This document shows, one piece after another, positions 10,465 to 25,724 of a stretch of 64,000 bases of DNA. The position numbers were made by a program, and so were the translations under genes. This DNA comes from Candidatus Electrothrix aestuarii (lineage in GTDB: Bacteria > Desulfobacterota > Desulfobulbia > Desulfobulbales > Desulfobulbaceae). The stretch lies in assembly GCA_032595685.2 (NCBI GenBank), contig CP159373.1, forward strand, positions 889,001 through 953,000, in the 5' to 3' direction. Numbering within the stretch: the stretch's first letter is position 1; every line of letters begins with the position of its first letter. Below the pieces are notes generated by a model. It was not told the origin of the DNA and did not search any database. It saw only the letters and a list, made by a program, of their open reading frames with translations.

Positions 10465-10754
10465 ATGATTCAGTACTCTGCTTAGAGTGGTGTCCACACC
10501 TGATAGCGGTGCAAATCCCATTATTCGCCAAGCGATTCTTTCTGTAAACAGATTTTCACAAATATCTGCTTTTTGGAAAAACAGCAGGATGACAAACAGA
10601 ACAGGGACTATGCCCGGTCTTTTGCTCTGTGCTGCCGGAACGTCCTGTACAGCTCATCCAACAACACAGCAAAAAGGAGAAGAAATACTTTTACAGTATC
10701 AGCCCCCCGGTTTCAAGTTCCTTTTCAATTAACCGTTCTCACCAGGAGATACCC

Positions 10755-12191
10755 ATGACCAATGCATTATGCCTGTGTTTGCTTGCTCTCTTTCCCTTTT
10801 CCCTCGCTTTTGCCATGCCTGAAAACAACGCCGAAGAAATTATTTCCTCCCTTGACGACCAGACCTCTGTTGCCGTAACCATCTATAATCAGGACCTTGC
10901 CCTGATCCGAGATTCGCGAAAATTAACTCTGCAACCTGGTCAACAGACCTTGGCCTTTCGCGAGGTCAGCGCCAAGATTCGTCCCCAGACAGCACTGCTG
11001 GCAGCGCCAGGGCTCCAGGTGCTGGAACAAAATTTTGAGTATGACCTGCTCTCCCCGCAATCGCTGCTGGAAAAATATGTGGGCCAACAAGTGACACTCG
11101 TCACAACCCATCCCACCACCGGTGAAGAAAGCCAGCAGGAGGCCACAGTCCTCAGTAACGGTAGCGGCACTGTCCTTCGGGTTGGCGATCATATTGAATC
11201 CGGCGTTCCGGGCCGCCTGATCTTCCCCTCTGTCCCGGAGAACCTGCGGGACCGCCCTACCCTGACCATGTTGGTGGACAATAAAACCACGGAAGCACAA
11301 CCGGTGGTTCTCAGCTACCTGACCAGCGGCCTCTCCTGGCAGGCCGATTACGTTGCCGAATTGGGGGAAGACGACACCACCCTTGACCTCAACGGCTGGG
11401 TGACCCTGAAAAACGAAAGTGGGGCCACCTATGAAAATGCTCAACTCAAACTGGTGGCCGGTGATGTCAACAGGGTTCGGGAACGAGTGCAGCCCCTTGC
11501 TATGATGAGGAGTGCACCACGTGCAGAGGCGGACATGGCCGCTGGCATGGCAGAGGAGTCCATGTTTGAGTATCATCTCTACACCCTGGGCCGCCCCACG
11601 ACCATCAAGGAGAAACAGTCGAAGCAGGTGGCCCTGATGCAGGCCAACAACGTGCAGGTGAAAAAAGAGTTCATCCTGGATGGTCAGAATTATTACTACA
11701 GCAGCCAAGTCGGAGACCTGGGCAAAAAGCTCAAGGTCGGAGTCTTTGTTGAGATGAAGAACAGCAAGGAGGCAGGCATCGGCCAGCCGTTACCTGCCGG
11801 TATTATGCGGGTCTACAAAAAAGACAGCTCCGGCAGCCTCCAGTTTGTTGGTGAGGATAGAATTGACCACACCCCGGAGAACGAGACGATCCGCCTGAAA
11901 TTGGGTGATGCCTTTGATGTCACCGCAGACAAGAAACAGACAGATTTTAAAAAGCTGGCCGGATTCAGCCGCTTCAACTATGTCTATGAAACAGCCTTTG
12001 AAATTGTCCTGAAGAATGCCAAGGAAGAGGCTGTGACCGTGCGGGTGCAGGAGCCTGTACCCGGCGATTGGGAGATTATTGAGGAATCAGCCCCGCACGA
12101 CAAGGAGAGTGCCAGCGCTGCGGTTTGGCATATCACAGTGGAACCAAAATCCAATACCACGCTGACTTGGCGAGTAAAGGTGAAATATTAG
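10755..12191 (+). CDS. Secreted DUF4139 domain protein
   Basis: This is a 478-residue protein of the DUF4139/DUF4140 (mucoidy-inhibitor A-like) group, whose function is not established. The start at ATG 10755 is supported by AGGAG at 10744-10748 and gives a normal signal peptide (MTNALCLCLLALFPFSLAFA). The N-terminus has VAVTIYNQDLALIRDSRKL. The central part contains LSYLTSGLSWQADYVAEL and LNGWVTLKNESGATYENAQL, which are hallmarks of the family. The C-terminus ends in a beta-rich segment (NTTLTWRVKVKY). The protein is probably periplasmic or outer-membrane associated. The GT2 gene starts 6 bp after its stop, so the two are likely co-transcribed. Confidence 0.85.
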   Translation: MTNALCLCLLALFPFSLAFAMPENNAEEIISSLDDQTSVAVTIYNQDLALIRDSRKLTLQPGQQTLAFREVSAKIRPQTALLAAPGLQVLEQNFEYDLLSPQSLLEKYVGQQVTLVTTHPTTGEESQQEATVLSNGSGTVLRVGDHIESGVPGRLIFPSVPENLRDRPTLTMLVDNKTTEAQPVVLSYLTSGLSWQADYVAELGEDDTTLDLNGWVTLKNESGATYENAQLKLVAGDVNRVRERVQPLAMMRSAPRAEADMAAGMAEESMFEYHLYTLGRPTTIKEKQSKQVALMQANNVQVKKEFILDGQNYYYSSQVGDLGKKLKVGVFVEMKNSKEAGIGQPLPAGIMRVYKKDSSGSLQFVGEDRIDHTPENETIRLKLGDAFDVTADKKQTDFKKLAGFSRFNYVYETAFEIVLKNAKEEAVTVRVQEPVPGDWEIIEESAPHDKESASAAVWHITVEPKSNTTLTWRVKVKY

Positions 12192-12197
12192 TTGTTC

Positions 12198-12872
12198 ATG
12201 AATACAGTTATTGTCATTCCGGTCTATAACGAGGCCAAGGTGGTGGGCCAGGTCATTGAAGATGTCCGGGCCCACGGTTTTCCCCATATCATCGTCGTTG
12301 ATGACGGCAGTGCGGACGAGAGCTGGCATGTGGCCTCGGCCCACGATGCGCTGGCCATCCGCCTCAAGGTAAATCGCGGTAAGGGGGCTGCGGTCAAAAC
12401 CGGTATCATGGCGGCCAACCTGCTCAATGCAGATGTGGTGGTGACCATGGACGGGGATGGCCAGCACGATCCGGCAGATATCAAGCCGTTGATCACCCCG
12501 ATCCTTGAAGGAAAAGGTGATGTAGTGCTCGGCTCCCGCCTCCTCCATCGGGAGGAGATGCCCAAGATCAAAGTCCTTGCCAACAGCATCGGTAACTTCT
12601 TTACCTGGCTCTTCTACGGCCTGCTGGTTTCAGACAGCCAGTCCGGCTTTCGCGCCTATTCCCGCTATGCGGCTCTGATTATTGATACCAAGGCGGATAA
12701 GTATGAGTACGACAGCAAGGTGATCCGGGAGATAAAAAATAATCGCCTCCGCTTCACCGAGGTTCCGGTGCATACCCGCTATACGGAGTATTCCAAGGGG
12801 AAGAAAACCAAGCAGGGCTTTCTCAATGGCCTTATCACCCTGTACAGGATGGTCTGGAAGATGATTGCGTGA
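12198..12872 (+). CDS. Family 2 glycosyltransferase, polyprenyl-phosphate type
   Basis: This is a 224-residue GT-A fold transferase resembling dolichol/polyprenyl-phosphate mannosyl- or glucosyltransferases. It has an N-terminal nucleotide-sugar binding strand (VIVIPVYNEAKVVGQVIED), then HIIVVDDGSADES, then the metal-binding motif VTMDGDGQHDPAD. The acceptor side has a QSGFRAYSR segment. There is no long C-terminal membrane domain, so it is a soluble or peripheral form. I chose ATG 12198; a TTG two codons earlier is also possible. It follows the DUF4139 gene by 6 bp and precedes the MaoC gene by 34 bp. Confidence 0.82.
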   Translation: MNTVIVIPVYNEAKVVGQVIEDVRAHGFPHIIVVDDGSADESWHVASAHDALAIRLKVNRGKGAAVKTGIMAANLLNADVVVTMDGDGQHDPADIKPLITPILEGKGDVVLGSRLLHREEMPKIKVLANSIGNFFTWLFYGLLVSDSQSGFRAYSRYAALIIDTKADKYEYDSKVIREIKNNRLRFTEVPVHTRYTEYSKGKKTKQGFLNGLITLYRMVWKMIA

Positions 12873-12906
12873 GGGGAGCGCTCCTCAACAACTTCTCGGA
12901 GTTGAT

Positions 12907-13308
12907 ATGAAACACACATTGCAGGTCGGCGACAAAGCGACCTTGCGCAAAGCATTCACAGCAAGTGAGGTTGAGCTTTTTGCACAAATCTCAGGCGATG
13001 ATAATCCCTTGCACATGAATCAGGAATTCGCCGAGAAGACACCCTTTGGTCAGCCCATTGTTCATGGCCTGCTGGTTGCGAGTTTATTTTCCGGCTTGCT
13101 TGGTGGGAAATTCCCTGGTCATGGGACCATTTACCTTGGGCAAAATATATCGTTCAAAGCCCCTGTCTTTCTGAACGAAACAGTTGAGGCTTCGGTGGAG
13201 ATCATTAAAATCAGGGAGGACAAGCCTATTATTACCCTGAGGACTTTATGTGTGAAAGATGACGGGACTATAGCGATTGAGGGGGAGGCGGTGGTAAAGG
13301 TAACCTAA
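12907..13308 (+). CDS. MaoC-like (R)-specific enoyl-CoA/ACP hydratase
   Basis: This is a 133-residue single hot-dog-fold hydratase. The catalytic segment ISGDDNPLHMNQEFA carries the conserved Asp and His of (R)-hydratases, and FGQPIVHGLLVASLFSGLLG is the typical following helix. Family members hydrate trans-2-enoyl thioesters to (R)-3-hydroxyacyl thioesters, linking beta-oxidation or fatty acid synthesis to other lipid products. The start at ATG 12907 follows a CGGAG ribosome-binding site; an in-frame ATG 14 codons upstream has none. Its position just before the oxidoreductase/ketosynthase cluster suggests, without proving, a shared acyl pathway. Confidence 0.85.
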   Translation: MKHTLQVGDKATLRKAFTASEVELFAQISGDDNPLHMNQEFAEKTPFGQPIVHGLLVASLFSGLLGGKFPGHGTIYLGQNISFKAPVFLNETVEASVEIIKIREDKPIITLRTLCVKDDGTIAIEGEAVVKVT

Positions 13309-13399
13309 AGAGCAAGAGCCTCCCTTCAATTTGAACAGCTCATCCACCACCAAGCAACAGCACGTTGCCTAGCAAACAAACAACCTACCCCACAACCCC

Positions 13400-14548
13400 A
13401 TGACCGCCCAAAACATCCTCTTCACCGAAACCACCATCAACGGCCTCTCCCTCAAAAACAGATTCATCAGAGCAGCCACCTGGGAAGGGCTTGCCACGCC
13501 GGAAGGCGCGGTCACCCCACAGCTTATCGACAGGATGGTCACGCTTGCACAAGGTGGTGTCGGCCTGATCATAAGCAGCCACGGCTATGTCTCCAAAGAA
13601 GGCCAGGGAACGCCCTGGCAACTGGGAATTCACGAGGACTACCTTGTCAACGGCCTCGAAGAACTTACCACGGCTGTCCATGACAACGGTGGCAAGATCA
13701 TCCTGCAGCTCGCCCATGCTGGTCAGTACGCAGCAACGGAGCTCACCGGTCTTCCAGCCTTAGCGGTCTCCCCCCTTCCCGCTTCAACGGACATCCAGTA
13801 CAAGGTAATCACCCAGGAAGATATCGAAGCCCTTATCATTGCCTATACCCAGGCCGCCCAACGCGCAAAGGAAGCAGGATTTGACGGCGTGCAGCTCCAC
13901 GCTGCCCACGGCTACCTACTCAGTCAGTTCCTCTCCCCGGCCTTTAACCAGCGCCCCGATGCATACGGTGGTGATATCAAGAATCGAACAAGAATACATC
14001 GCGAAATCTTACAGGCAATCAGGGAGGCGGTTGGCAGAGATTATCCTGTCTTCATCAAGATGAACTGTGCTGATTTCATCGAAAACGGCCTGGAAGCAGA
14101 GGACTCCCTGCAAGCGGCAAAGATCTTCACAGAGGCTGGGGCAGATGCTATAGAAATCAGTGGCGGCATTATCCGCACCGGAAAACTCTCCCCCAGCAGG
14201 CCCGGCATAACCACTCAGGAGAAAGAGGCCTATTTCAAAGAATATGCGCAACGCGTGAGAGCAGAGCTCTCAATTCCCCTTATCCTGGTTGGCGGCATCA
14301 AATCCTTTGAGGTTGCTTCAGAAATTGTCTCGCAAGGGACTGTCGATTATATCTCCATGAGCAGGGCCTTAATCAGAGAACCGGATTTGATCCTTCGCTG
14401 GCAGAACGGTGACCTCCGGTCTGCGCAATGCCGATCAGACAACCTCTGTTTCACTCCCGGCTTTGAGGGCAAAGGCGTCTACTGTATTACCAAGGAACTG
14501 GAGGAGAAGAAACTCTCTGCATCCCAACTCAAAAGCGAGTACAGTTAG
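13400..14548 (+). CDS. NADH:flavin oxidoreductase, Old Yellow Enzyme family
   Basis: This 382-residue TIM-barrel FMN enzyme has the family segments LKNRFIRAATWEGLATPEG at the N-terminus, IILQLAHAGQYA, and the FMN/substrate motif QLHAAHGYLLSQFLSP followed by NQRPDAYGG. The C-terminal phosphate-binding strand is LILVGGIKSFE, with YISMSRALIREPDL after it. No 4Fe-4S Cys cluster or second domain is present, so it is the short ene-reductase type, not a 2,4-dienoyl-CoA reductase fusion. Such enzymes reduce activated C=C bonds. The start codon lacks an obvious Shine-Dalgarno. It sits 91 bp after the MaoC gene and 108 bp before the ketosynthase. Confidence 0.85.
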   Translation: MTAQNILFTETTINGLSLKNRFIRAATWEGLATPEGAVTPQLIDRMVTLAQGGVGLIISSHGYVSKEGQGTPWQLGIHEDYLVNGLEELTTAVHDNGGKIILQLAHAGQYAATELTGLPALAVSPLPASTDIQYKVITQEDIEALIIAYTQAAQRAKEAGFDGVQLHAAHGYLLSQFLSPAFNQRPDAYGGDIKNRTRIHREILQAIREAVGRDYPVFIKMNCADFIENGLEAEDSLQAAKIFTEAGADAIEISGGIIRTGKLSPSRPGITTQEKEAYFKEYAQRVRAELSIPLILVGGIKSFEVASEIVSQGTVDYISMSRALIREPDLILRWQNGDLRSAQCRSDNLCFTPGFEGKGVYCITKELEEKKLSASQLKSEYS

Positions 14549-14656
14549 AGAGCTACGGTTTACTGTGAGAGAGGAATGAATACGATGCAACTCCTCTTTC
14601 AATTCCTCTTTTAAGACCCGAAACAGGGACAACACAGGGGCACAGAGGTTTGACCA

Positions 14657-15658
14657 TTGATAAAGAGATTTGAAGTACTTGGCACCGGAGCCTCCTTACC
14701 TGCTTTACGCGTCTCTTCCCGCCAACTGGATCAGGAAAAGGGTCTTGCCCCAGGTGCTGTCGAAGAGAGAACCGGTGTCTCCTCCCGTTATTACGCGGTC
14801 GATGAATCAGCCTCTGACTTGGCCTTTGCAGCAATTCAGCAGGCCCTGAATAATGCCTCGCTCTCCCTCAAGGATATCGACTGCCTGATTGCGGCCTCCG
14901 GCACTATGGAACAGGCAATCCCCTGTAACGCCGCTAAGATTCTTGCCCGCCTTCAGCAAAATATGCCTCTCAACCCCTCCATTGTTGGCTTTGACATCAA
15001 CATGACCTGTCTCAGTGCCTTAATGGCAATTGATGTGGCAGCTTCCCTGCTCGCAGCTGGGCAGTACCAACGCATCCTTATCGTTTCCAGCGAGATCGCA
15101 TCCGTGGGATTGGATTGGCAGCATATTGAAATAGGCGGGCTATTCGGTGATGGGGCAGCAGCACTGGTTGTTGCACAATCGACTGAGGAAACATGCGGTA
15201 TTCACGAGGCACTCTTCAGGACATATTCGGAAGGTGTGGACTTATGCCAAATACAGGGCGGTGGCAGCCTCTATCATCCCTCCAAAATCAAGAGAGATTA
15301 CAGCCCATACGGCATGTTTCAGATGCAGGGGAAAGAACTCTACCGCCTCACCAGAAAGGTGATTAAAGCGTTCTGCAAGGAGCTGCTGCACAACAAGACC
15401 GCATCAACGGAAGCCATTGATTGGGTTATCCTCCATCAAGCAAGCGGCTTAGCCTTAAAGCATTTTGATAAACTGTTACAGCTTGATCCCAACAAGACCA
15501 TTCATTTACTGCAAGATCACGGCAATCAAGTCGCTGTGTCGCTCCCTTTTGGTCTGCACACCCTCCTGACCACCAAACCGGTCAAGCTGGGGGATCGGGT
15601 CTTACTGCTGGGAACCTCAGCCGGGTTAAGTATTGGGGGGCTGGTCTTGCAATTATGA
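14657..15658 (+). CDS. Ketosynthase III (FabH/OleA-like) of a tight six-gene operon
   Basis: This thiolase-fold condensing enzyme is 333 residues long. It has the KAS III catalytic triad: Cys118 in INMTCLSALMA, His260 in VILHQASG and Asn290 in HGNQVAVSLP. It also has the typical GASLPALRVSS opening and EERTGVSSRYY. It should condense an acyl thioester with malonyl-ACP/CoA or a second acyl-CoA; the substrate cannot be told from sequence. It is unlikely to be housekeeping FabH because no fab genes are adjacent. Translation starts at TTG 14657 after an AGAGG site. Its stop overlaps the next ATG (ATGA), showing translational coupling. Confidence 0.85.
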   Translation: MIKRFEVLGTGASLPALRVSSRQLDQEKGLAPGAVEERTGVSSRYYAVDESASDLAFAAIQQALNNASLSLKDIDCLIAASGTMEQAIPCNAAKILARLQQNMPLNPSIVGFDINMTCLSALMAIDVAASLLAAGQYQRILIVSSEIASVGLDWQHIEIGGLFGDGAAALVVAQSTEETCGIHEALFRTYSEGVDLCQIQGGGSLYHPSKIKRDYSPYGMFQMQGKELYRLTRKVIKAFCKELLHNKTASTEAIDWVILHQASGLALKHFDKLLQLDPNKTIHLLQDHGNQVAVSLPFGLHTLLTTKPVKLGDRVLLLGTSAGLSIGGLVLQL

Positions 15659-16491
15659 GACTGGAACTCCTCAAAGTGGGCCATTGCTCTCATCCTGAGG
15701 CCGTGGTTGTTCGTGGCGGAACTTGGCGTGCCCGCTCCTTCCCTGCAATCGTCGGGATCCTGCACCATCCGCAACAGGGCTACATCCTTTTTGATACAGG
15801 GTATGCAAGGCGTTTTCATGAGGCAACCCATGCCTTTCCCGAACGCCTCTATCGCTGGCTGACCCCTATGCATCTCCCGCAAACAGAGGAACTCCCGTAC
15901 CTGCTGGCCCAGCGAGGTCTTACCACAGAAGATATTCAATATATCTTCATATCGCATTTCCATGCAGATCATATTGCAGGCCTCCTTGATTTCCCCAAGG
16001 CCCGGTTCATCTGCTCAGAGTCGGCCCTGTATGCAGCAACTCACCAGCAGCGCGTTCATGGACTGATCAAAGGGAACCTCCCGGCTCTTCTCCCGCCAGA
16101 TCTCTTGCAGCGAACCACCTTTATCGAGGAATGCCCGACAACAGCCTCCGGGTTAGCGCAGCATGCCTTTGCCAAGGGCTATGATATCTTTGCTGATGGT
16201 TCCTGTCTTGCCATTGCCTTACCGGGCCATGCACAGGGACAGTTTGGCTTACTCTGCTCCCAGGATGATTCGCGATATTTCCTGGTGGCTGATGCCTGCT
16301 GGACCAGGGCATCGTTCAAAGATGGCAGCAAACCCCTTGCCGTGGCCAATATCATCATGAGCAGCACGGCGCAGTATCACAGGACCATAGAGGCCCTGGC
16401 CCAACTGCACGCCATGCAGCCCGACCTTTTCATCATTCCGTCCCATTGTCAGGAGACCTATGACGAGTTTTCCCATGCCCAAAAAATATAA
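15655..16491 (+). CDS. MBL-fold metallo-hydrolase
   Basis: This 278-residue metallo-beta-lactamase-fold hydrolase carries the dinuclear metal motif HFHADHIAG. Further ligands are in the LPGHAQGQFGLL strand, and later VADACWTR and IIPSHCQETYD. The closest characterised relatives by motif are AiiA/AttM-type lactonases and similar esterases. In this operon it could hydrolyse a thioester, lactone or beta-lactone product of the ketosynthase, which is inference. It overlaps the ketosynthase by 4 bp and the epimerase by 32 bp. Confidence 0.82.
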   Translation: MRLELLKVGHCSHPEAVVVRGGTWRARSFPAIVGILHHPQQGYILFDTGYARRFHEATHAFPERLYRWLTPMHLPQTEELPYLLAQRGLTTEDIQYIFISHFHADHIAGLLDFPKARFICSESALYAATHQQRVHGLIKGNLPALLPPDLLQRTTFIEECPTTASGLAQHAFAKGYDIFADGSCLAIALPGHAQGQFGLLCSQDDSRYFLVADACWTRASFKDGSKPLAVANIIMSSTAQYHRTIEALAQLHAMQPDLFIIPSHCQETYDEFSHAQKI

Positions 16492-17443
16492 AATCTTAGT
16501 CACCGGTGCATCCGGCTTTGTGGGACGCTCCTTTATGCAGCAATTCGCTGCTCGTAAGGATGTGCAGCTCCTGGGCATAGCGCGTCGCCCCTTATCCATG
16601 CCCAACTACCTCTCTGTGGATCTCACTCAGGGCCTTGATATCCCCTTTCAGCCGGATGTGGTTATCCACGCCGCAGCCCATGTCTCGCCCTGGGGAAGGA
16701 AAAAGGCTTTCTCGGCCCATAATGTCTTTGCCACAGAGCAGGTCATCCACTTCTGCAAACGCAATAACTTGCCCCGCCTCGTCTATCTCTCGTCCAGTTC
16801 GGTCTTTTATCAGGATAAACCCCAGTTTGATCTTACCGAGGAGAGCCAAATCGGGCCGGAGTTTATCAATGAGTACGCTGCAAGCAAGTACGAGGGAGAG
16901 AAACGGGTCAGGCAATACAGGGGAGAATCCGTGATACTACGGCCACGGGCGGTGTTCGGGCCTGGGGATACCGTGCTCTTACCGAGAATACTGGCAGCAG
17001 CAGAAAAGGGCCGCCTGCCCATCCTGGATAGTCAGGCAGGTGCGGTCATCGGTGACCTCATCTATATTGATTCGCTCTGCGAGTACATGCTCAAAGCAGC
17101 CCTGGACAACAACATCAGCGGCGAGTACAACCTCACTAATGCAGAACCAGTGGAAATGCATAGCCTGCTCCTGGATGTCCTCTCCCGCTTAGGTCTGCCT
17201 GCCCCCAAGCGCCATATCAAGGTCTCAACCGCCATGACCCTTGCTACCGTGCTGGAGAATATCTACAAGTTCCTGGGCATAGCCAAGGAACCACCCATTA
17301 CTCGCTACGGCATCAGCGTCCTGGCCCATTCAAAGACCTTTAATGTAGAAAAGATGCTTCGGGATTTCGGCCCGCCATCTGTTTCGATGCGCGAAGGGGT
17401 TGAACGCTATATTCAATGGAAGATGCAAGATGCTGCTTGCTGA
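16460..17443 (+). CDS. NAD-dependent epimerase/dehydratase (extended SDR)
   Basis: This 327-residue extended short-chain dehydrogenase has the NAD-binding motif LVTGASGFVGRSF at its N-terminus, DVVIHAAAHVS, the Ser before VFYQD, and the active-site pair NEYAASKYEGE. The 3-beta-hydroxysteroid-dehydrogenase/OleD subgroup is plausible because it sits beside a thiolase-like condensing enzyme, where OleD reduces a 2-alkyl-3-ketoacid. A sugar epimerase role is the alternative. ATG 16475 (MPKKYK) is an equally possible start. It overlaps the genes on both sides. Confidence 0.82.
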   Translation: MTSFPMPKKYKILVTGASGFVGRSFMQQFAARKDVQLLGIARRPLSMPNYLSVDLTQGLDIPFQPDVVIHAAAHVSPWGRKKAFSAHNVFATEQVIHFCKRNNLPRLVYLSSSSVFYQDKPQFDLTEESQIGPEFINEYAASKYEGEKRVRQYRGESVILRPRAVFGPGDTVLLPRILAAAEKGRLPILDSQAGAVIGDLIYIDSLCEYMLKAALDNNISGEYNLTNAEPVEMHSLLLDVLSRLGLPAPKRHIKVSTAMTLATVLENIYKFLGIAKEPPITRYGISVLAHSKTFNVEKMLRDFGPPSVSMREGVERYIQWKMQDAAC

Positions 17444-18581
17444 GCTTGCCTTTCTCTATCTGCTCGTCCTGTTCTGCAAGTCACAGGCTGCACTCCGCTT
17501 TCTCAGGACCTATCCTCAGCCAAAAACAGCCGTTCCTCTTGAGCAGGTAGCCATCTTCCAGCCCATCCTCAGCGGTGACCCCACGCTGGAACAGACCCTT
17601 GCCGCCAATATAGTTCCCCTGCACGGCGCAACCTTTTACTGGCTTGTTGATGACGATGACCTGGAGGCCCATATCATCGTTAATAACATCGTTGATGCCC
17701 TCAGAGAACAATCCCCAGAGGCAACTATTATCAAGCAGAGCTTTCCTGCCGCACCAGAAGGAATAAACCCCAAGCTCTTTAAAATCAATCAGGCCCTTTC
17801 CTCCTGCCAGCAGCAATACTGCGTTATCCTGGATGATGACACCAGGCTTCCCTATCCCACCCTACAAGGTCTTATCGTAGCCCTCCAGGATTGCAGCCTG
17901 GCAACAGGCTTGCCCCAATACAGATCGAACGGTAACTTCCCTTCCGCCTTACTCGCCGCCTTTGTCAACAACAACGCCTCTATGACCTATCTCTCCACGC
18001 TCCTGTTCATGGAACCCATCACCATCAACGGGATGTGCTATGCCTTTCAGCGGGAGAAGTTTGCTGCCTGGGGCGGCTTCCAATCGGTTCTCCATCATCT
18101 CACAGATGACCTTGCTGTGGCCGGGATGGTGCTGGCACAGGGAGGAACAATTCGCCAAATCCCTGCTCGACAAATCATCCAGACTCATCTACCCGGCATG
18201 CGCGCCTATTTCCGCCAGATGCACCGCTGGTATGTCTTTGCCAATATTCTTTTTGCCCAGCAGCCGTTACGAATCAAAGCCCTGTTAACCGTCTTGCACG
18301 GGATACCGCCACTGCTGCTTGCAGCCCTTTTCGTGGGTTCTCTCTTTGCTCCGTCACTGCTCCATAGCGGGATTATTCTCTGCACCCTGGCCCTGCGGCA
18401 TTGCATCATCATGCAGCATAACGAGCAGCAAAAGGCTGGTGACCTCAGATCGTTCCTTCTCTCCCTCCTCTCAGAACTGCTCCAAAGCCTGCATTACCTC
18501 CATGCCCTCTTGTCCCGGCGCATACGCTGGCGGAGCCGCATCTATACAGTCCTTGCCAGCGACAAATTTAAGAGCGTGTAG
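17430..18581 (+). CDS. Membrane glycosyltransferase, ceramide-glucosyltransferase/HpnI type (GT21-like)
   Basis: This 383-residue GT2/GT21-type enzyme has an N-terminal hydrophobic segment (LAELAFLYLLVLF) and a C-terminal pair of membrane segments (about residues 290-335). Its catalytic motifs are WLVDDDD, YCVILDDDTRLPYPTL, LTDDLAVAG and the acceptor motif QMHRWYVF, corresponding to the D, DxD, D and (Q/R)xxRW pattern. Known relatives glucosylate ceramide or modify hopanoids, so a lipid acceptor is likely. I chose ATG 17430, which follows GGAAG; a TTG at 17400 is longer but lacks a site. It overlaps the epimerase gene by 14 bp. Confidence 0.82.
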   Translation: MLLAELAFLYLLVLFCKSQAALRFLRTYPQPKTAVPLEQVAIFQPILSGDPTLEQTLAANIVPLHGATFYWLVDDDDLEAHIIVNNIVDALREQSPEATIIKQSFPAAPEGINPKLFKINQALSSCQQQYCVILDDDTRLPYPTLQGLIVALQDCSLATGLPQYRSNGNFPSALLAAFVNNNASMTYLSTLLFMEPITINGMCYAFQREKFAAWGGFQSVLHHLTDDLAVAGMVLAQGGTIRQIPARQIIQTHLPGMRAYFRQMHRWYVFANILFAQQPLRIKALLTVLHGIPPLLLAALFVGSLFAPSLLHSGIILCTLALRHCIIMQHNEQQKAGDLRSFLLSLLSELLQSLHYLHALLSRRIRWRSRIYTVLASDKFKSV

Positions 18582-19247
18582 ATGGAAAGGGTGATGGGAA
18601 CGGCAGGTCTTGGGGCGATCTTTTTGACAGGCCAAAGCGATAAACGCAGTTGCAGTCTCATCCCTGCCCAAGAGCAGACCGCCGAGGCCTTACGCAAGCT
18701 GGGTCTTGATGTTTACCCGCTGAACTTTCCCTATCAGGAACAGATGGCTCCTTATCAAAAGGTTCCTATCATTCGAGCAAGCATAGCGAATCTGCATATG
18801 TACTTGCAGTCACGACAAGAGGAGTTTGCCTCCAAACATCGCCCCCAATTTTGCGAAAGGATCTCGCAACACACCTTCACTCTGGTGCTTGCAGGCAGTT
18901 GTGGACTGGAGATAATCAATAATCTATGTTTATCTGATGAGATAAAGAAGAAACTCCATATCTTCGCCTATGGACCCGTTGCCCGTAAGCAGCCTGATAT
19001 CAGCTGCACCCTAGTGCAGGGCAGACGTGATTGGCTCTCAAAATACTTCTTTTCCCAGGTGGATCTTATTGTGGACTGCGGACATATGGATTATCTCCAA
19101 TCACCGGAGGTTCTCAGGGTTCTTAAAGAAACGGCTCTGCACTTACAGGAGGAAATAAACACCCCCGCCCCAAAGGGCGGGGTATCCACTCAAAATGCCC
19201 TGCTGTTACCTCGCAGTCAGCAGAATATCAGAGTTAACCAGGAGTAA
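18582..19247 (+). CDS. Uncharacterised operon protein, possibly alpha/beta-hydrolase-like
   Basis: I do not recognise the family of this 221-residue protein. The start codon is immediately after the previous stop; ATG 18594 is an alternative with a better AAAGGGTG site. It shows alternating beta-strand and helix character (LGAIFLTGQSDKRS, TLVLAGSCGLEIINNL, LHIFAYGPVARKQPD, VDLIVDCGHMDYLQ). The LAGSCGLE stretch faintly resembles a nucleophile elbow, but no full catalytic triad can be assigned. The last 30 residues are read through a GC-rich palindrome and look like a late addition. Tight packing suggests it works with the adjacent transferases. Confidence 0.7.
   Translation: MERVMGTAGLGAIFLTGQSDKRSCSLIPAQEQTAEALRKLGLDVYPLNFPYQEQMAPYQKVPIIRASIANLHMYLQSRQEEFASKHRPQFCERISQHTFTLVLAGSCGLEIINNLCLSDEIKKKLHIFAYGPVARKQPDISCTLVQGRRDWLSKYFFSQVDLIVDCGHMDYLQSPEVLRVLKETALHLQEEINTPAPKGGVSTQNALLLPRSQQNIRVNQE
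19163..19182. repeat. REP-like GC palindrome inside a coding tail
   Basis: CCCCGCCC (19163-19170) and GGGCGGGG (19175-19182) form an 8-bp perfect stem with a 4-nt loop, flanked by ACAC and TATCC. This form is typical of REP and IS200/IS605-associated palindromes. It lies in frame inside the 3' end of the uncharacterised operon gene, about 65 bp before its stop. Confidence 0.6.
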
Positions 19248-19256
19248 GACCTCACC

Positions 19257-20552
19257 ATGAAACGTGGTCAAATAGATCTCCTCGCTCCCCCCTTTAAGGG
19301 CCATCTCCATCCCATCCTGGCAATGGGCAGGCTTTTGGCGCCATACTATGATGTCTGCGTGCTTTCCTCCGCAGCAACGCAAGCCGATATAGAAGCGGCC
19401 GGACTCAAGGCCATCATCCTGGAATCTATTGATGACAAGGTGCTGATGGACATCGTCAGCCCGCCCTATGTGGTCGGCAACTCGCCCTTGGCCTTACGCA
19501 AGCAGTTCAGCGGCGTCCTGCCTTTTCTCCAGGGGCTCTCTCAAGAGCTTGAGCAGATATATTCCACCCGTCGGCCTGATCTCATGATAGCAGATTTCGT
19601 CATTCCGGTAGCAGGCCTGGTTGCTGATAGATTTAATATCCCTTGGTGGACAAGCATTCCGCCTACCTGTGTCCTGGAAGGCCCGGATGGACCTCCGGCC
19701 TATCTTGGCGGCTTGCAACCCGCAACATCGCCGCTCGGCGAACTGAGAAATTTCCTGGGGAGAAAACTGGTCCGAGTGTTCAAGCGGGTCATCTTTCGCT
19801 GCTATGCCAAAGAGATCAAAGGGCTTGGTTTGCAACAGGTCTATCGCAAGGATGGCAGCGAGGCCATCTATTCATCCCGGCGTATTCTCTGCCTAAGTCA
19901 TCAGGGGCTGGAGTTCACCCACAACTGGCCGCCTCAGGTATCACTCATCGGCCCCATGCTCTACAGTCCGCCGATCAGCTCTTTGCGGCCGGATTTCCTT
20001 GCAGGCAAGAAGTATATTCTGGTGACTCTGGGAACTCATGTTGATACACAAAAAGATCGGGTCTGCGCGGCAGTTGAGCAGGTCGTGGAGAAATTCCCTG
20101 ATTATGTGTTCCATTTTACTGATGGGCATAGCGAAACCCAATCCATGCGCAAGATTAACGAGCAACTTTACCGTTTTTCCTATATTAATTATCAGGAGCA
20201 TATCGCGTCATACGATCTGGTAGTGCATCATGCGGGAACAGGAATTTTATATCATTGCCTGCTCAATGGAATTCCGTCTCTTGCCTATCCTGTTGATTAT
20301 GATCAGTTTGATTATGCTGCACGACTGGAGTATCATGGCTTCAGTATTTGGTTGAAAGATATCAACAAGCTGGACAAGGCATTAGCCACGGGATTGGCGT
20401 CTGAGGAGATGAAATCCAGGGTTAAAGAGTTTGCTGGGATCTTGCGAGATACGGTCGATGCTGGTGAGCTATTAGATTTGGTGAGGGAGCATATGTCTTC
20501 CAGTGCTGTGGAAACGCATGATCTTTCCGGGAGCCCAAGAGGGAAGATATAA
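19257..20552 (+). CDS. GT1 (UGT/MGT-like) glycosyltransferase
   Basis: This 431-residue GT-B fold transferase opens with the family pattern IDLLAPPFKGHLHPILAMGR. It contains the donor-side segments ILVTLGTHVDT and the HHAGTG motif (DLVVHHAGTGILYHCLLNG followed by IPSLAYPVDYDQFDYAARLE). UGT/MGT enzymes glycosylate lipids, carotenoids, flavonoids or polyketides. As the last gene of the coupled cluster (10 bp after the unknown gene) it is a good candidate for the final sugar transfer. The C-terminal ~20 residues are polar and variable. Confidence 0.85.
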   Translation: MKRGQIDLLAPPFKGHLHPILAMGRLLAPYYDVCVLSSAATQADIEAAGLKAIILESIDDKVLMDIVSPPYVVGNSPLALRKQFSGVLPFLQGLSQELEQIYSTRRPDLMIADFVIPVAGLVADRFNIPWWTSIPPTCVLEGPDGPPAYLGGLQPATSPLGELRNFLGRKLVRVFKRVIFRCYAKEIKGLGLQQVYRKDGSEAIYSSRRILCLSHQGLEFTHNWPPQVSLIGPMLYSPPISSLRPDFLAGKKYILVTLGTHVDTQKDRVCAAVEQVVEKFPDYVFHFTDGHSETQSMRKINEQLYRFSYINYQEHIASYDLVVHHAGTGILYHCLLNGIPSLAYPVDYDQFDYAARLEYHGFSIWLKDINKLDKALATGLASEEMKSRVKEFAGILRDTVDAGELLDLVREHMSSSAVETHDLSGSPRGKI

Positions 20553-20574
20553 CTTGTTTATAATGATGCTAACA

Positions 20575-20870
20575 GGTTATACAAGAGTTGTTAGCTATCA
20601 ACAGAAGGTTGTTTATTACAAACAAAAGGTTCGTAGCTATCAAGAGAAGGCTGTTAAGAGCTAACAAGAGGTTATTTGCTCTAAACAAGGAGCTGTTTGT
20701 TATAAACAAAGAGTTCTTGGTTAATAAGAGAAGGTTGTTTGTTCTAAACAAAAGGTTCGTGGTTATCAAGAGAAGGTTATTGGTAGCTAACAAGGAATTG
20801 TTTGCTCTTAACAGAAGGTCGTTGGTTACGAACAAAAGGTTGTCGGCTATCAAGAGAAGATGATTTATTC
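20575..20870. repeat. 21-bp periodic tandem array, about 14 degenerate units
   Basis: A motif of the form AACAAAAGGTTGTTNGNTATC recurs exactly every 21 bp. The AGG anchor ends at 20587, 20608, 20629, 20650, 20671, 20692, 20713, 20734, 20755, 20776, 20797, 20818, 20839 and 20860, with no insertions or deletions. Units alternate between AACAAAAGG and AAGAGAAGG forms. Because the period is divisible by three, both strands stay open. The + strand reads basic heptads like NKRLFVL and RRLLVAN; the - strand reads NNLLLIT-like heptads. Neither frame has an ATG or a convincing ribosome-binding site, so I do not call a gene. The rest of 20553-20987 shows nothing else. Confidence 0.8.
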
Positions 20871-20987
20871 GTAATAAAGAACCATTGATGAAATTAAGTC
20901 CGCTCTAACTTTTTTTATAGGCATCCATTTCGAAAAAATGAATAAAATTTTAATAAGTGCTGCTCTTGGAGCTATTATGAGGAAGTT

Positions 20988-21974
20988 ATGAAAATAATAT
21001 TTGATTCAGAAATTGCGGAAGCAATTGAGAAATGTTCGCCCGAATATATTGCTGTTGCATATATTGGCAAGGACTGGAGGCAGTTTATCCCTAAACCTTC
21101 AAGGTTAAAAAGCGTTATCATCTCGCCGACTCTAGGTACTAATCCAAGAGCAGTGACTGATATGGTCAATGAGTTAGGATGGGACAAAATTGAGTTTCTG
21201 GATGAATTGCACGCAAAACTATACTTAGGTAAAAGCAGCGCTGTAACGGGCAGCTCAAACTTAACGAAAAATGGTTTGTCTGGTGAAGGCTTGCAGGAAC
21301 TCTGCATTGCCACCAATAACGATAGCCATTTAAAAAAATTTAAAATTTTTTTCGATAAGATGAAAGTTGAAGCCTCATCTTCTTATCCAGACATCAAAAA
21401 AAAGAAACAGAAATTGAATGAACTGTACAGCGTTTGGAATAAAGCTGTCTCGCATGGGTTAGCTGTACAGGATCAACCTGTTGCTAAGTTTGAAGATTTT
21501 GATTTGTTATCTAATGACCAATTCTACATAACTTGGTATCAAAATGCAGATTGTAAACATTCTGATGAGTTGCAAGCAATTAAAGAGTTTATCGATGATG
21601 AAATACACTTCTTACCTGAAGATAATATCCAAAAAAATAAATGGGTATTAATGTGGAGAATAACTAACACTGACACAGCTGACAAGCGAACCAACCCTCG
21701 ATGGCTGTATATACATGAATTATTCAAAGGTGGTATCACCGAATCAAACTATAAATACACGACAGCAGCTATTCAGCGTAATGATCTTGAGAAACCATCA
21801 GAGCCATTTGAGTTGACTAAGGATGTCATTAACGCGCTAAAAGAAGCAGTAGAAAAAAAATCAAATAGAGATTACTTCGTGCAAGGTGATCTATACGAGA
21901 CAAAAAAGGCACAAGAAAAACTAGGTCAGCTCGTTACAGACATGAAGAACATTATTGGCAAACAAACCCTTTAA
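20988..21974 (+). CDS. Phospholipase D-like domain protein, probable nuclease
   Basis: This 328-residue protein has a single HKD-type half site in its N-terminal third: His75 and Lys77 in LDELHAKLYLG, followed by VTGSSNLTKNGLSG with the Ser and Asn of the motif. One HKD copy usually means the active enzyme is a dimer, as in the BfiI-type restriction endonuclease and Nuc. The C-terminal two thirds (YSVWNKAVSHG onward) are unrecognised. No lipoprotein or signal sequence is present, so a cytoplasmic nuclease is more likely than a lipase. It stands in an A+T-richer island between the 21-bp array and a helical/macro-domain pair. Confidence 0.75.
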   Translation: MKIIFDSEIAEAIEKCSPEYIAVAYIGKDWRQFIPKPSRLKSVIISPTLGTNPRAVTDMVNELGWDKIEFLDELHAKLYLGKSSAVTGSSNLTKNGLSGEGLQELCIATNNDSHLKKFKIFFDKMKVEASSSYPDIKKKKQKLNELYSVWNKAVSHGLAVQDQPVAKFEDFDLLSNDQFYITWYQNADCKHSDELQAIKEFIDDEIHFLPEDNIQKNKWVLMWRITNTDTADKRTNPRWLYIHELFKGGITESNYKYTTAAIQRNDLEKPSEPFELTKDVINALKEAVEKKSNRDYFVQGDLYETKKAQEKLGQLVTDMKNIIGKQTL

Positions 21975-22262
21975 GAATGATTAGCAATGTGTGGCACGTT
22001 TACCATGCGCTACTCATACCTTACTTAATAGGACGTTCGGCGCCAAACACATGCGTCGCCTTGCATGATCAGTAAGGTGATAAGTTCAATTTAATCCTTA
22101 GCTTTCTATAAGCGTATTCCCTTTTCGCACAGTGGTGTTTTCAATTATCTAGCGCGTGCTAGGCCGAACCATCGTACATGCAATTGACAAAATATGGCAT
22201 GAATACTATCTGAAATCGCCAGCTCTTATAAGAAGCAAGATAGCAACGAAGAAGACAATCAT

Positions 22263-22844
22263 ATGAGCACTAACCAATCATTATCACGAGAAAACATTCG
22301 CAGAGTCCGCAAACTCGAAGACGCCTTGCATGCTCTTCAAGAGAAAAAACAAACGTCTTTTTCTATCACCAAGCTAACGAGCATCAAAAGCCTGTGTCAG
22401 GAAGAATTCTTCAGAAAAGAATACTGCCGTTATCTGGCATCAGTCGTCATAGAAGATGCAAAGATGTCAGATAATAATAAAAACGATCTAAGCAAGTTGT
22501 TTCATGACGCGCAGCATGCGATTACGGACCTTACAACGCATACCGATGAAGGCGACGAAGCTGCTGCTGAAAGAACACTCTCCCAGCTTATAAATTTTCA
22601 AAACGAGCACAAAAGAGTTAAATCGTATACCATCAGAATCATAAAGAATAGCAGGCTCATAATCATGGAGGACATTCTTCGTTGCCTCCTTGCATACAGA
22701 ACAGATACCGCGACAGCGTACGCTTATGATGCCACAAGAAGTTATGTTGAAAAATATAATCCTCGTTATGGCACAGGCCTGAATGTAGACTCAATCCCAA
22801 TGCTGGAAAAAGTCATCCAGTTTTGGAAAAGATATGAGAAGTAG
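22263..22844 (+). CDS. Uncharacterised all-helical protein paired with macro-domain gene
   Basis: This 193-residue protein of no family I recognise is predicted to be almost entirely helical and charged. It has repeated heptad-like stretches (RRVRKLEDALHALQEKK) and no membrane segment or signal peptide. Its stop is 8 bp before the macro-domain gene, so the two are very probably one transcript. The preceding 288 bp (21975-22262) contain an imperfect inverted repeat (GTTCGGCGCC near 22036, GGCCGAAC near 22162) but no gene. Possible roles include partner, toxin or scaffold of the macro-domain protein; none can be assigned from sequence. Confidence 0.65.
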   Translation: MSTNQSLSRENIRRVRKLEDALHALQEKKQTSFSITKLTSIKSLCQEEFFRKEYCRYLASVVIEDAKMSDNNKNDLSKLFHDAQHAITDLTTHTDEGDEAAAERTLSQLINFQNEHKRVKSYTIRIIKNSRLIIMEDILRCLLAYRTDTATAYAYDATRSYVEKYNPRYGTGLNVDSIPMLEKVIQFWKRYEK

Positions 22845-22852
22845 CATAGCTC

Positions 22853-23323
22853 ATGACCCCAGAAATAGTCTACGGAGATATCCTCAAACAAGACGTAGAG
22901 GTCATCGTCAATGCCTGGAACAGGAATATCATTCCCTGGTGGTTACTCCTGCCTCAGGGCGTCTCAGGAGCAATAAAAAAGAAGGGCGGTTACGCCCCCT
23001 TCAAAGAACTCGCCAAGTTTGGCCCGATCCCTTTAGGCGAAGCAAGACGAACATCAGCAGGTACCCTGCCCTTTCAGGCTATTATCCATGTGGCAGGAAT
23101 CAACATATTCTGGGTGGCAACACAATATTCGGTTAGCAACGCCGTCAAGAATGCAATGAATATCGTGAAGAAAGAAGGCTACCGAAGCGTCGCCTTTCCT
23201 CTTATTGGAGCTGGGTCAGGGAATAGAAACCAAGAGTGGTCATTGGGTTTAATGCTTGAAACGTTCAAGCAGATTGAGACACCGGCCAGGGTAGCAATAG
23301 TACGATACAGAAAAAACACCTGA
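22853..23323 (+). CDS. Macro-domain (ADP-ribose binding) protein
   Basis: This 156-residue stand-alone macro domain begins with the ADP-ribose pocket motif IVYGDILKQDVEVIVNAWN, where Asp9 and Asn20 match the conserved GDIT...VNAAN pattern. The phosphate loop FPLIGAGSGN lies in the second half. Macro domains bind or hydrolyse ADP-ribose on proteins, nucleic acids or small metabolites and often act as antitoxins to ADP-ribosyltransferases (DarG type). No ART-fold toxin is recognisable in the neighbouring helical protein. The AWN variant in place of the usual AAN is unusual. Confidence 0.82.
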   Translation: MTPEIVYGDILKQDVEVIVNAWNRNIIPWWLLLPQGVSGAIKKKGGYAPFKELAKFGPIPLGEARRTSAGTLPFQAIIHVAGINIFWVATQYSVSNAVKNAMNIVKKEGYRSVAFPLIGAGSGNRNQEWSLGLMLETFKQIETPARVAIVRYRKNT

Positions 23324-23386
23324 TAACAATTGGCTGAACCGATACGCCATCACTAATAGTTGCACAACAAAATAAGGAAGTTATTT

Positions 23387-23989
23387 ATGTCTGTTGTATG
23401 TGGAGTCATAAAAGATAATCAAGTAGCAATATCATGCGATACACAAGCAAATTGCGGATCGTTAATTCTATCAGCAGCGCATCGTATCAATTCAACAAAA
23501 TTATTGAAAGTAAACGGGAGTATTATTGGTATAGTTGGTTGGAGTGCAGTGTCAGATATGATTGAACATTTAATCATTAGCAATGAAAAATTATTTCAGT
23601 TTGCTGATCGTATGGAAATTTTTTCTTCTCTTCTACGCCTTCACCAGGAAATGAAAGAAAATTATTATTTAGAGACAAATGAAGAAGATGACCAACCCGT
23701 AGAATCAAACCAACTGAGCGCGATAATAATCAATAAAAATGGACTATTTAGCACCGCAAGCTATAGAGAGGTCAACCAATATAGGACATATTGGGCAATT
23801 GGCGCCGGAAATCAGCTCGCTTTAGGAGCAATGCATGCGTTATATGATAAACCGTTTACAGCCAAAGAAATTGCTGAGGCAGGCGTTCTGGCAGCTGTCG
23901 AGTTTGAAGAATCATGTGGCCTGCCGCTCCAAACTGAAGTACTCAACCTGACCAACAACTCTATGAAATTAACCTGGGGACACAAATGA
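23387..23989 (+). CDS. Proteasome/HslV-like Ntn hydrolase with N-terminal Ser
   Basis: This 200-residue protein resembles the HslV/Anbu/proteasome beta fold. After removal of the initiator Met the sequence starts SVVCGVIKDNQVAISCDTQ, which aligns with HslV so that Ser1 is the nucleophile and Asp17 (in SCDTQ) the conserved acidic residue. A Lys near position 37 (STKLLKV) probably matches Lys33. Ser as nucleophile is known in Bacillus CodW. The later segments IVGWSAV and YWAIGAGNQLALGAM match the fold. ATG 23387 has AAGGAAG upstream. No HslU or other unfoldase is nearby. It overlaps the M50 protease gene by 4 bp. Confidence 0.78.
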   Translation: MSVVCGVIKDNQVAISCDTQANCGSLILSAAHRINSTKLLKVNGSIIGIVGWSAVSDMIEHLIISNEKLFQFADRMEIFSSLLRLHQEMKENYYLETNEEDDQPVESNQLSAIIINKNGLFSTASYREVNQYRTYWAIGAGNQLALGAMHALYDKPFTAKEIAEAGVLAAVEFEESCGLPLQTEVLNLTNNSMKLTWGHK

Positions 23990-24678
23990 ACTTTGTCGAA
24001 CCATTAGTGTGGTATATAGCCTTTCTCTTCTCCGCAACAGTACACGAGGCTGCGCATGCCTGGACAGCAAAAATGGGTGGTGACTTAACGGCCTATGAAG
24101 GCGGACAGGTTTCTCTTGATCCGATACCACATATTAAAAGAGAGCCAATAGGCATGACAGTACTCCCTATTATCACCTCAATTATCACAGGTTGGCCCTT
24201 TGGCTATGCCAGTGCGCCATATAATCCATATTGGGCCTCTCGCTATCCACATAAAGCCGCATGGATGGCTTTAGCTGGTCCAGCTTCAAACCTCGCGATT
24301 GTCCTCCTCTGCATGGCTACGGCATGGATCGGCATCCTGCTCGGTTTCTTTCAAGTACCAATGCATGTGCGCTATACCAGCATTGTTGCTGCTGGCTCAA
24401 CAGACCTCTCCGGCTCAGTGGCATTTATTCTCAGCATCTTATTCACACTCAATTTGGTCATGACAATTTTAAACCTGATCCCACTCCCACCACTAGATGG
24501 CAGCGCGGCTATTACGCTTTTTATGAGCGAAGAACAGGCAAGAAATGTTCAGGAAATGCTCAACAACTCACCTTTTCGCTTTCTCGGTTTATTCATAGCT
24601 TGGAAAATTTTCGATCCAGTTTTTAATGCTCTTTTCGTTCTCATAATGAACATAATGTACCCAGGTTCGTATTCATAA
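23986..24678 (+). CDS. Site-2-type (M50) intramembrane zinc protease
   Basis: This 230-residue polytopic membrane protein has the zinc motif HEAAHAW (His20, Glu21, His24) within its first membrane segment. The second family motif is NLIPLPPLDGS (Asp171), preceded by another hydrophobic segment, with LAGPASNLAI between them. This arrangement defines the S2P/FtsH-linked M50B group. No PDZ or CBS domain is present. It is translationally coupled (ATGA) to the Ntn hydrolase, so one membrane-embedded and one compartment-type protease are co-produced. Confidence 0.85.
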   Translation: MNFVEPLVWYIAFLFSATVHEAAHAWTAKMGGDLTAYEGGQVSLDPIPHIKREPIGMTVLPIITSIITGWPFGYASAPYNPYWASRYPHKAAWMALAGPASNLAIVLLCMATAWIGILLGFFQVPMHVRYTSIVAAGSTDLSGSVAFILSILFTLNLVMTILNLIPLPPLDGSAAITLFMSEEQARNVQEMLNNSPFRFLGLFIAWKIFDPVFNALFVLIMNIMYPGSYS

Positions 24679-24848
24679 AGACATAATCACCGAACGTCCT
24701 TCGTGCCCCCTCAGGCTGAGGAAACAAAACATGAAAATTCGTTTGACCCATTCCCCGGTCACGTTCATAATGGAACGAGCAACCCAAGCAAGACCTGCTC
24801 ACCTGCGCTTTACGTAAAAACACAAAGGACTTTTCCGAGGATAACAAT

Positions 24849-25724
24849 ATGCCAAGCGGTATTTTTGCAATTTTAGACGACATAGCCATGCTGCTGGACG
24901 ATGCCTCTGCCATGAGCAAGATAGCAGCAAAGAAGACAGCTGGCATCCTGGGCGATGATTTGGCCGTTAATGCGGAAAAAGCAACCGGCTTTCATGCCTC
25001 ACGGGAACTCCCGGTCATCTGGGCCATCACCAAGGGCTCCCTACTCAATAAAGTCATCATCCTGCCCATAGCTCTTGTCCTGAGCACCTATATGGATTGG
25101 CTCATCGTCCCTATCCTCCTGCTGGGTGGCGCTTATCTCTGCTTTGAGGGAGCGGAAAAAATTTACGAGTGGCTGGTTCATCGTTTTTTTCACAAAGCGC
25201 ATGAAGAAGGGGGACACCCGAGTGGCTCTAAAAAACTCACGGAAAAAGAAAAAATACGCTCCGCCATCAGGACCGACTTCATTCTTTCCATAGAAATCAT
25301 CGTTATCACCCTGGAATCAGTCATTGATCAAAAAATGCTCATACAGCTTCTGGTCGTCAGTTTTGTGGCATTATTAGCCACAGTGGGGGTCTATGGTCTT
25401 GTTGCTTTGTTGGTTAAGCTTGACGACATGGGCTTTTATCTGGTTCAGTATGCTCAGTCAATGACTGGATCAATGGCCAGGATACTGGCCAAGACTGGTA
25501 AGATCCTCATTGCCTCATTGCCTAAAATCATCAGGTTCCTCGAATTTGTGGGCACGGTTGCTATGCTCCTTGTCGGCGGAGGCATGTATGTACATAATAT
25601 TCATGTGGTTCATGACGGACTCCATTTCATGCCTGAAATGCTTGCCAGCTTTCTTGCAGGCCTGATCGTTGGCTTTCTTGTCCTGTTCGTCCTCCACTTT
25701 GCTCCAAAAATAATGAAAAAATGA
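24849..25724 (+). CDS. DUF808 (YedI-like) inner-membrane protein
   Basis: This 291-residue protein of the DUF808 family is identified by the strongly conserved opening (MPSGIFAILDDIAMLLDDAS, then KIAAKKTAGILGDDLAVNAE). About six membrane segments follow, the first around residues 70-95. The family's function is unknown. A GAGG site lies 8 bp upstream of the start. The stop overlaps the next gene (ATGA). The 170 bp before it (24679-24848) contain no feature I can name. Confidence 0.85.
   Translation: MPSGIFAILDDIAMLLDDASAMSKIAAKKTAGILGDDLAVNAEKATGFHASRELPVIWAITKGSLLNKVIILPIALVLSTYMDWLIVPILLLGGAYLCFEGAEKIYEWLVHRFFHKAHEEGGHPSGSKKLTEKEKIRSAIRTDFILSIEIIVITLESVIDQKMLIQLLVVSFVALLATVGVYGLVALLVKLDDMGFYLVQYAQSMTGSMARILAKTGKILIASLPKIIRFLEFVGTVAMLLVGGGMYVHNIHVVHDGLHFMPEMLASFLAGLIVGFLVLFVLHFAPKIMKK

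Follow-up and report, generated by a model that had tools for sequence, protein, structure and literature searches.

Between positions 14657 and 20552 of a 64,000-nucleotide stretch of the Candidatus Electrothrix aestuarii genome (the window, bases 889001-953000 of a single 5,110,699-base contig) lie six co-directional open reading frames (ORFs), all of them open. They encode a ketosynthase III (KS), a metallo-beta-lactamase-fold hydrolase (MBL), a reductase (SDR), a first glycosyltransferase (GT21), an unnamed protein (UNK) and a second glycosyltransferase (GT1), listed in Table 1. The intergene spacings from KS to GT1 are -4, -32, -44, 0 and +9 bases, and the overlap between SDR and GT21 shrinks from -44 to -14 if the latter starts at its alternative ATG. 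An earlier note, made from the sequence alone, had described this tightly packed set; both gene content and packing hold (overlaps of 4-44 bases, gaps of 0-9), and the Pfam and NCBIfam matches agree with its family assignments. Pairwise NG86 dN/dS comparison with two sister loci (L059 and L060) gives an omega of 0.10-0.22 for each of the six genes, which means that all are under purifying selection. Since the unit is also conserved across phyla, its arrangement is not due to chance. Promoter-like sites occur about as often as in shuffled sequence (7 versus 5.5, standard deviation 2.5) and terminator-like sites lie 1.6 standard deviations above it (11 versus 6.3, standard deviation 3.0); neither set was used.

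Table 1. Genes of the six-gene unit, with window coordinates and the evidence for each assignment.
Gene	Assignment	Coordinates	Strand	Evidence
KS	Ketosynthase III, MxnB/CorB-like	14657..15658	+	Pfam/NCBIfam ACP_syn_III, phmmer, model, 21-row alignment
MBL	Metallo-beta-lactamase-fold hydrolase, acyl-homoserine lactone (AHL)-lactonase-like	15655..16491	+	Pfam/NCBIfam Lactamase_B, aligned motifs
SDR	NAD(P)-dependent reductase, OleD/3-beta-HSD type	16460..17443	+	Pfam/NCBIfam Epimerase/3Beta_HSD, motifs, tree
GT21	Ceramide-glucosyltransferase/HpnI-like glycosyltransferase	17400..18581 (alternative start ATG 17430)	+	PF13506 Glyco_transf_21, motifs, hydropathy
UNK	Unnamed alpha/beta-hydrolase	18582..19247	+	17-row alignment, AlphaFold2 model, Foldseek and VIA
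GT1	GT1/MGT-like glycosyltransferase (UGT superfamily)	19257..20552	+	PF04101 Glyco_tran_28_C, MGT below cut-off

The unit also recurs in distant bacteria. A profile scan of genome contigs with a two-row GT21 alignment yields 14 loci, in which SDR is found 14 times, UNK, KS and MBL 13 times each, and GT1 12 times. These and all other gene-content counts rest on tblastn placements, because ORF calls in high-GC loci are imperfect even with a GC3 criterion. The order KS-MBL-SDR-GT21-UNK-GT1 recurs in six Lysobacterales loci (L048, L049 and L051-L054, with L051 ending within GT1), and the same six genes stand in the same order in six further Lysobacterales loci (L085-L090) found via UNK. With UNK as sole bait, 15 additional loci are recovered, containing KS, SDR and GT21 in all 15, MBL in 14, GT1 in 13, and a gene for an "F390 synthetase-related" protein (TIGR02304, hereafter F390) in eight. 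Genomes with a UNK profile match number at least 8 among 299 from the order to which a Lysobacter genome belongs, at least 2 among 295 from that of a Citrobacter genome, 8 among 98 Fusobacteriota and at least 1 among 294 Planctomycetota; the already known genome at the search centre is included in each count. Thus the genes make up one operon-like unit and are not scattered in relatives: their order is the same in the sister loci and in Lysobacterales, and they are kept together elsewhere. By these comparisons the six genes form a real, horizontally spread unit.

Beyond Lysobacterales the arrangement varies. In six Enterobacterales loci, SDR2-GT21 comes after KS-SDR1-MBL-F390, and UNK-GT1 is next in five of the six; the Leclercia cluster has a PAP2 gene and two desaturase-type genes inserted between its parts. 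The order in Leptotrichia is fSDR-GT21-UNK-GT1-SDR-MBL-F390-KS, and the fusobacterial set of Fusobacterium vincentii lacks GT1. A planctomycete contig of 4.7 kb carries SDR-GT21-UNK directly preceded by an RmlD-family gene (dTDP-4-dehydrorhamnose reductase type), as expected of a sugar-adding cassette. The second glycosyltransferase is not constant: present in the window, the sister loci and Lysobacterales, it is missing from four loci (L041, L043, L096 and L099), some of which retain all the other genes. Some copies are damaged. In one Lysobacterales genome (L091, 7706-11121) KS, SDR and GT21 are in pieces and MBL was not found by tblastn; in L092 the F390 gene and GT1 are split; and in Leptotrichia (L055, 10106-10690) the UNK frame meets a stop codon soon after it begins, with no usual-start ORF longer than 93 amino acids, the near relatives L093-L095 having UNK ORFs of 208-213 amino acids. 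Within the phylum sample, GT21 matches occur in 35 of 297 genomes (best E-value outside the own genome 1.7e-16, 30% identity). The others are taken as general GT21/HpnI kin, their neighbourhoods having been checked in short loci for the window's ten queries only.

The first enzyme places the unit among ketosynthase III-based clusters. By phmmer against Protein Data Bank (PDB) sequences, KS is closest to CorB (162.5 bits) and MxnB (154.3 bits), with the best FabH at 127.8 bits. Its monomer model (pLDDT 85.6, pTM 0.87) superimposes on MxnB with a VIA Z of 42.5 (root-mean-square deviation (rmsd) 2.2, 326 residues aligned) and on CorB with a Z of 41.0 (rmsd 2.8, 327 aligned), while all other structures remain at 39.9 or below. 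The Cys118-His260-Asn290 triad is present in 21 of 21 aligned KS sequences. In all 21, the position of the OleA E117/PpyS E105 glutamate holds Ile, Leu or Met (Ile88 in the window). The site was located from PMC4578411, and our mapping uses the proline that follows it; the same paper gives a valine here in both MxnB and CorB. In the KS tree, the cluster sequences and CorB/MxnB stand apart from two paralogues of the own genome (SH-aLRT 88); this grouping is only weakly supported, the tree having two outside rows only and no row for L004. Sequence, modelled fold and missing glutamate together indicate that KS is MxnB/CorB-like and not OleA-like. In vitro, MxnB condenses a pair of beta-ketoacyl chains, and it is described as having two tunnels (PMC5724707). 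Like the myxopyronin and corallopyronin enzymes, KS has a Cys-His-Asn triad and a hydrophobic residue where OleA and PpyS have Glu. However, their chains come from large polyketide synthase (PKS) lines and their product is a pyrone, whereas the window's KS sits amid a reductase, hydrolases and two glycosyltransferases, with no PKS in the operon.

The alignments also show intact motifs in MBL, SDR, GT21 and GT1. MBL is nearest to lactonases and retains the metal-ligand positions, HxHxDH plus later His/Asp. The best NCBIfam matches of SDR are OleD-type 2-alkyl-3-oxoalkanoate reductases, at 157 and 150 bits, neither of which reaches its cut-off, and the TGxxGxxG and YxxxK motifs are present. GT21 scores 112.3 bits against PF13506 (gathering cut-off 21.7). 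It has DDD (145-147) and DD (236-237) in 18 of 18 aligned rows, and QMHRW in 16 of the 18, replaced by LMKRW in two fusobacterial rows, in keeping with the Asp and QxxRW motifs of the GT21 family. Hydropathy places hydrophobic stretches at residues 7-30 and 292-328, and searching PDB sequences with GT21 produced no match at E 0.1. GT1 reaches 30.2 bits against PF04101 (cut-off 22) and only 46 bits against the macrolide-type TIGR01426, its best NCBIfam match (cut-off 260), so it is assigned to the wider UGT superfamily and not to MGT. Its relatives outside the genus are 30-57% identical.

The fifth protein, left as unknown in the earlier note, has no Pfam or NCBIfam family at E 0.001 and to that extent is still without a named family. 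Nevertheless, Ser106, Asp150 and His168 are invariant in 17 of 17 aligned sequences, and the AlphaFold2 model (pLDDT 87.3, pTM 0.85) resembles small lipases in Foldseek (best E 5.1e-05, TM about 0.5). VIA aligns it with the A. fulgidus lipase (Z 13.0, rmsd 3.1, 156 residues) and with the M. tuberculosis thioesterase TesA (Z 12.0, rmsd 3.1, 153 residues). Triad, model and fold matches identify UNK as an alpha/beta-hydrolase with a Ser-Asp-His set. UNK is accompanied by GT21 in every locus found and, wherever it is present, is coded next to it. A single-sequence UNK search of the window's phylum returned 2 of 297 genomes, the own genome and G133, whose match (E 2.4e-4, four internal stops) was set aside as a probable chance hit.

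A related core, KS-SDR-MBL-F390, occurs in other bacteria. It is found as a near DNA match (at least 90% identity) in 672 of 5,426 complete E. coli genomes, including strain EcN. One E. coli locus (L007, 8965-15846) shows a KS-SDR-MBL-F390-PAP2-sterol desaturase-desaturase cluster beside narGHJI; elsewhere in bacteria the core adjoins ATP-grasp/GNAT or DUF3419 genes. The F390-type clusters of E. coli, Rhizobium, Paraburkholderia and Paenibacillus resemble the window's unit in their tight operons and their proteins (KS about 40%, MBL 30-42%, SDR 27-34%), and in Enterobacterales and Fusobacteriota the F390-type core is joined with GT21-UNK in one cluster. They differ in their other neighbours (PAP2/desaturases, ATP-grasp/GNAT, DUF3419) and in that the window's own genome has no TIGR02304 match and its SDR belongs to the GT21-linked subclade. 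That subclade comes from a tree of 27 of 28 rows (the GT21-linked SDR of L046 left out, long branches warned of), in which 15 GT21-linked SDRs including the window's separate from KS/F390-linked ones (SH-aLRT 100) and two fusobacterial SDRs group with the latter. TIGR02304 exceeds its cut-off in 7 of the 16 other genomes with the cassette (six Enterobacterales and Leptotrichia); in the remaining nine (six Lysobacterales, the planctomycete, G353 and G349) it gives sub-cut-off matches only in five and none in four. In other lineages, the F390 enzyme might activate a carboxylate, and the lack of this enzyme in the window's genome points to a shorter route or to another end group. Searched by blastn, neither window positions 14657-18581 nor the Citrobacter glycosyltransferase cassette matched E. 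coli, the former search being weak at these protein distances and the latter excluding only copies of about 65-70% DNA identity or more; on these negatives, E. coli as a carrier of the six-gene cluster was set aside. Relatives of the Paraburkholderia F390-cluster neighbours (ATP-grasp-like and GNAT-like genes) lie downstream and on the opposite strand in one Lysobacterales locus (L049, 12121-14432).

From the enzyme types, the intact catalytic positions and the folds predicted for KS and UNK, we infer substrates, step order, sugars and product as follows. KS would join two acyl thioesters, or an acyl and a beta-ketoacyl thioester. MBL and/or UNK might then release or trim the ester or thioester, and SDR would turn the resulting ketone into a secondary alcohol. 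To this alcohol the membrane-bound GT21 would add a first sugar, much as ceramide glucosyltransferase does on ceramide. UNK might hydrolyse or transfer an acyl group on the sugar-lipid, and GT1, missing from some loci, would add a second sugar. We consider it somewhat probable that the operon is self-contained, horizontally spread, and makes a lipid or polyketide that is glycosylated and hydroxylated and probably has two chains. The scheme of condensation, reduction or cleavage and stepwise glycosylation put forward in the earlier note gains from the enzyme types and the conserved unit, its glycolipid product staying conditional. Its remark that the set matches no known pathway stands, with no characterised counterpart among the literature matches listed. 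Neither the six-gene unit nor the KS-SDR-MBL-F390 core is described in those matches; the unit is real and conserved, and it belongs with ketosynthase III-based lipid/polyketide clusters.

Several observations weigh against this route. No carrier protein is found among the six genes, and none of the six proteins reaches an NCBIfam equivalog cut-off. FabH-type structures are little behind MxnB and CorB in VIA (Z 39 versus 41-42), and the KS model has pLDDT below 50 at residues 85-88, 200-211 and 215-219, near the chain-pocket region; KS could be an ordinary malonyl-using ketosynthase III. The SDR superfamily is broad enough for the substrate to be sugar-nucleotide or sterol-like instead. In Ewingella (L043), GT21 is present without UNK or GT1.

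The product may be smaller. In place of a membrane lipid, the genes could make a glycosylated signal or antibiotic, for instance pyrone- or butenolide-like, through MxnB/CorB-type condensation and a macrolide-type GT1. CorB and MxnB, to which KS comes closest, form pyrones, MBL most resembles lactonases, and the best NCBIfam match of GT1, below cut-off, is of the macrolide type. The patchy distribution fits as well, and so do two neighbours: a sensor kinase/response-regulator pair that some Lysobacterales loci have downstream, and, next to the Leclercia cluster, a gene resembling a transporter (90 bits, below cut-off). But GT21 is of the ceramide/hopanoid-glycosylating type, neither a PKS nor a carrier protein is coded among the six genes, and no flanking gene is common across the lineages compared, most flanking genes being without identification. 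We regard this alternative as rather unlikely. The six genes might also be a decayed descendant of a KS-SDR-MBL-F390 cluster plus a glycosyltransferase cassette, yielding no full product. The missing F390 protein and the damaged copies in L091, L092 and L055 would suit such a history; the purifying selection on all six genes, and an F390-less six-gene form conserved across Lysobacterales and three genomes of the window's genus, make it very improbable.

Two known pathways share parts with the unit. An Ole-type route to long-chain olefins or beta-lactones, with glycosyltransferases added, would account for an SDR closest to OleD models, a KS in the OleA superfamily and an alpha/beta-hydrolase, OleB being one too. 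OleABCD offers a ketosynthase, an OleD-like reductase and an alpha/beta-hydrolase, yet the window's KS lacks the OleA glutamate, as do all 21 aligned sequences, and two glycosyltransferases are added. A scan of ten proteins of the window turned up no OleC-like AMP-forming ligase, a negative that covers these ten and not the rest of the genome. The olefin route was set aside on the missing glutamate and the lack of a ligase among the scanned neighbours, and we think it very improbable. Hopanoid side-chain glycosylation by HpnA and HpnI would likewise set a GT21-type glycosyltransferase beside an epimerase-fold gene, and GT21 and SDR do match these models. Their scores, however, fall far below the NCBIfam cut-offs (HpnI 76.2 versus 310 bits, HpnA 86 versus 367.65), on which ground this explanation was rejected, and the unit adds KS, MBL and GT1. 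A ketosynthase is not known to act in hopanoid glycosylation, and enterobacteria and fusobacteria, which carry the cassette, are not known hopanoid makers; this explanation, too, we think very improbable.

The two-chain glycosylated product that we favour can be set in a wider frame, which we offer as a doubtful conjecture. A common KS-MBL-reductase core might build a two-tailed ceramide-like lipid, onto which lineage-specific modules would place interchangeable head groups: two sugars and an alpha/beta-hydrolase here and in Lysobacterales, Enterobacterales and Fusobacteriota, and ATP-grasp/GNAT, DUF3419 or PAP2/desaturase modules elsewhere. If PAP2/desaturase genes always go with the core, that module would be present in about one eighth of complete E. 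coli genomes. The unit offers a compact, testable pathway found, outside the lineage of the window, in three further named phyla; its hydrolase family matched nothing in Pfam or NCBIfam. If the proposed route is correct, probable cable bacteria and fusobacteria would have a glycosylated lipid or signal that is not yet on record, and a function could more readily be given to the related cluster, so far unexplained, that E. coli Nissle shares with many other E. coli strains.

Within the genus, the cluster occupies a variable site. The six genes have the same order in L059 and L060. GT21 is found in 4 of 73 genomes of the family, one of them marginally (E 4e-4), and in 3 of 8 of the genus including the own one, some of the others being incomplete; in five sister genomes GT21 gave no match, and each of these has the flanking DUF4139 gene. 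The site, at 12872-24849 between the upstream glycosyltransferase GT2 and the Old Yellow Enzyme (OYE)/DUF808 genes, may hold the six-gene cluster, genes of methyltransferase-like or HDAC/ATP-grasp-like type (named by eye), or next to nothing. The cluster-less loci of four of the five were compared (L105-L108, L106 by tblastn matches only): L105 has DNA-methyltransferase-like and other genes (named by eye), L107 other genes, and L108 almost nothing but a MaoC remnant. Such a variable site fits horizontal gain and loss.

GT2, MaoC and OYE lie upstream of KS as the earlier note had said (at 12192, 12865 and 13400), but they do not belong to the set. MaoC and OYE are kept beside the six genes in L059; in L060 MaoC was not found, and of OYE only short pieces are left, on the far side of the cluster. 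OYE is present in the cluster-less L105 and L107, and tblastn (E up to 1e-5) detects none of the three in L041-L055. They were rejected as members, not being conserved with the unit outside the genus. An OYE homologue (29%) lies about 6.7 kb downstream of KS in a Paenibacillus F390-type cluster (L010).

Six Lysobacterales loci have acyl-CoA-dehydrogenase-like and amino-acid-dehydrogenase-like genes directly upstream; a sensor kinase downstream is common to five, with a response regulator in two ORF lists. These genes may reflect local synteny, or pathway supply or control. In the window, GT2 resembles polyprenyl-phosphate sugar synthases below cut-off and adjoins a DUF4139 protein (10629-12872), a pair also found in four of four cluster-less sister loci. 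Directly after GT1, 21-nucleotide (126-nucleotide) tandem repeats extend over 20586-20859, with similar sequence in L059 and L106, and L105 has a 7-residue-periodic ORF after GT2; such tandem repeats seem to mark the variable site. Further downstream (22853-24678) come three consecutive genes, for a macrodomain protein, a proteasome-like protein and an M50 peptidase.

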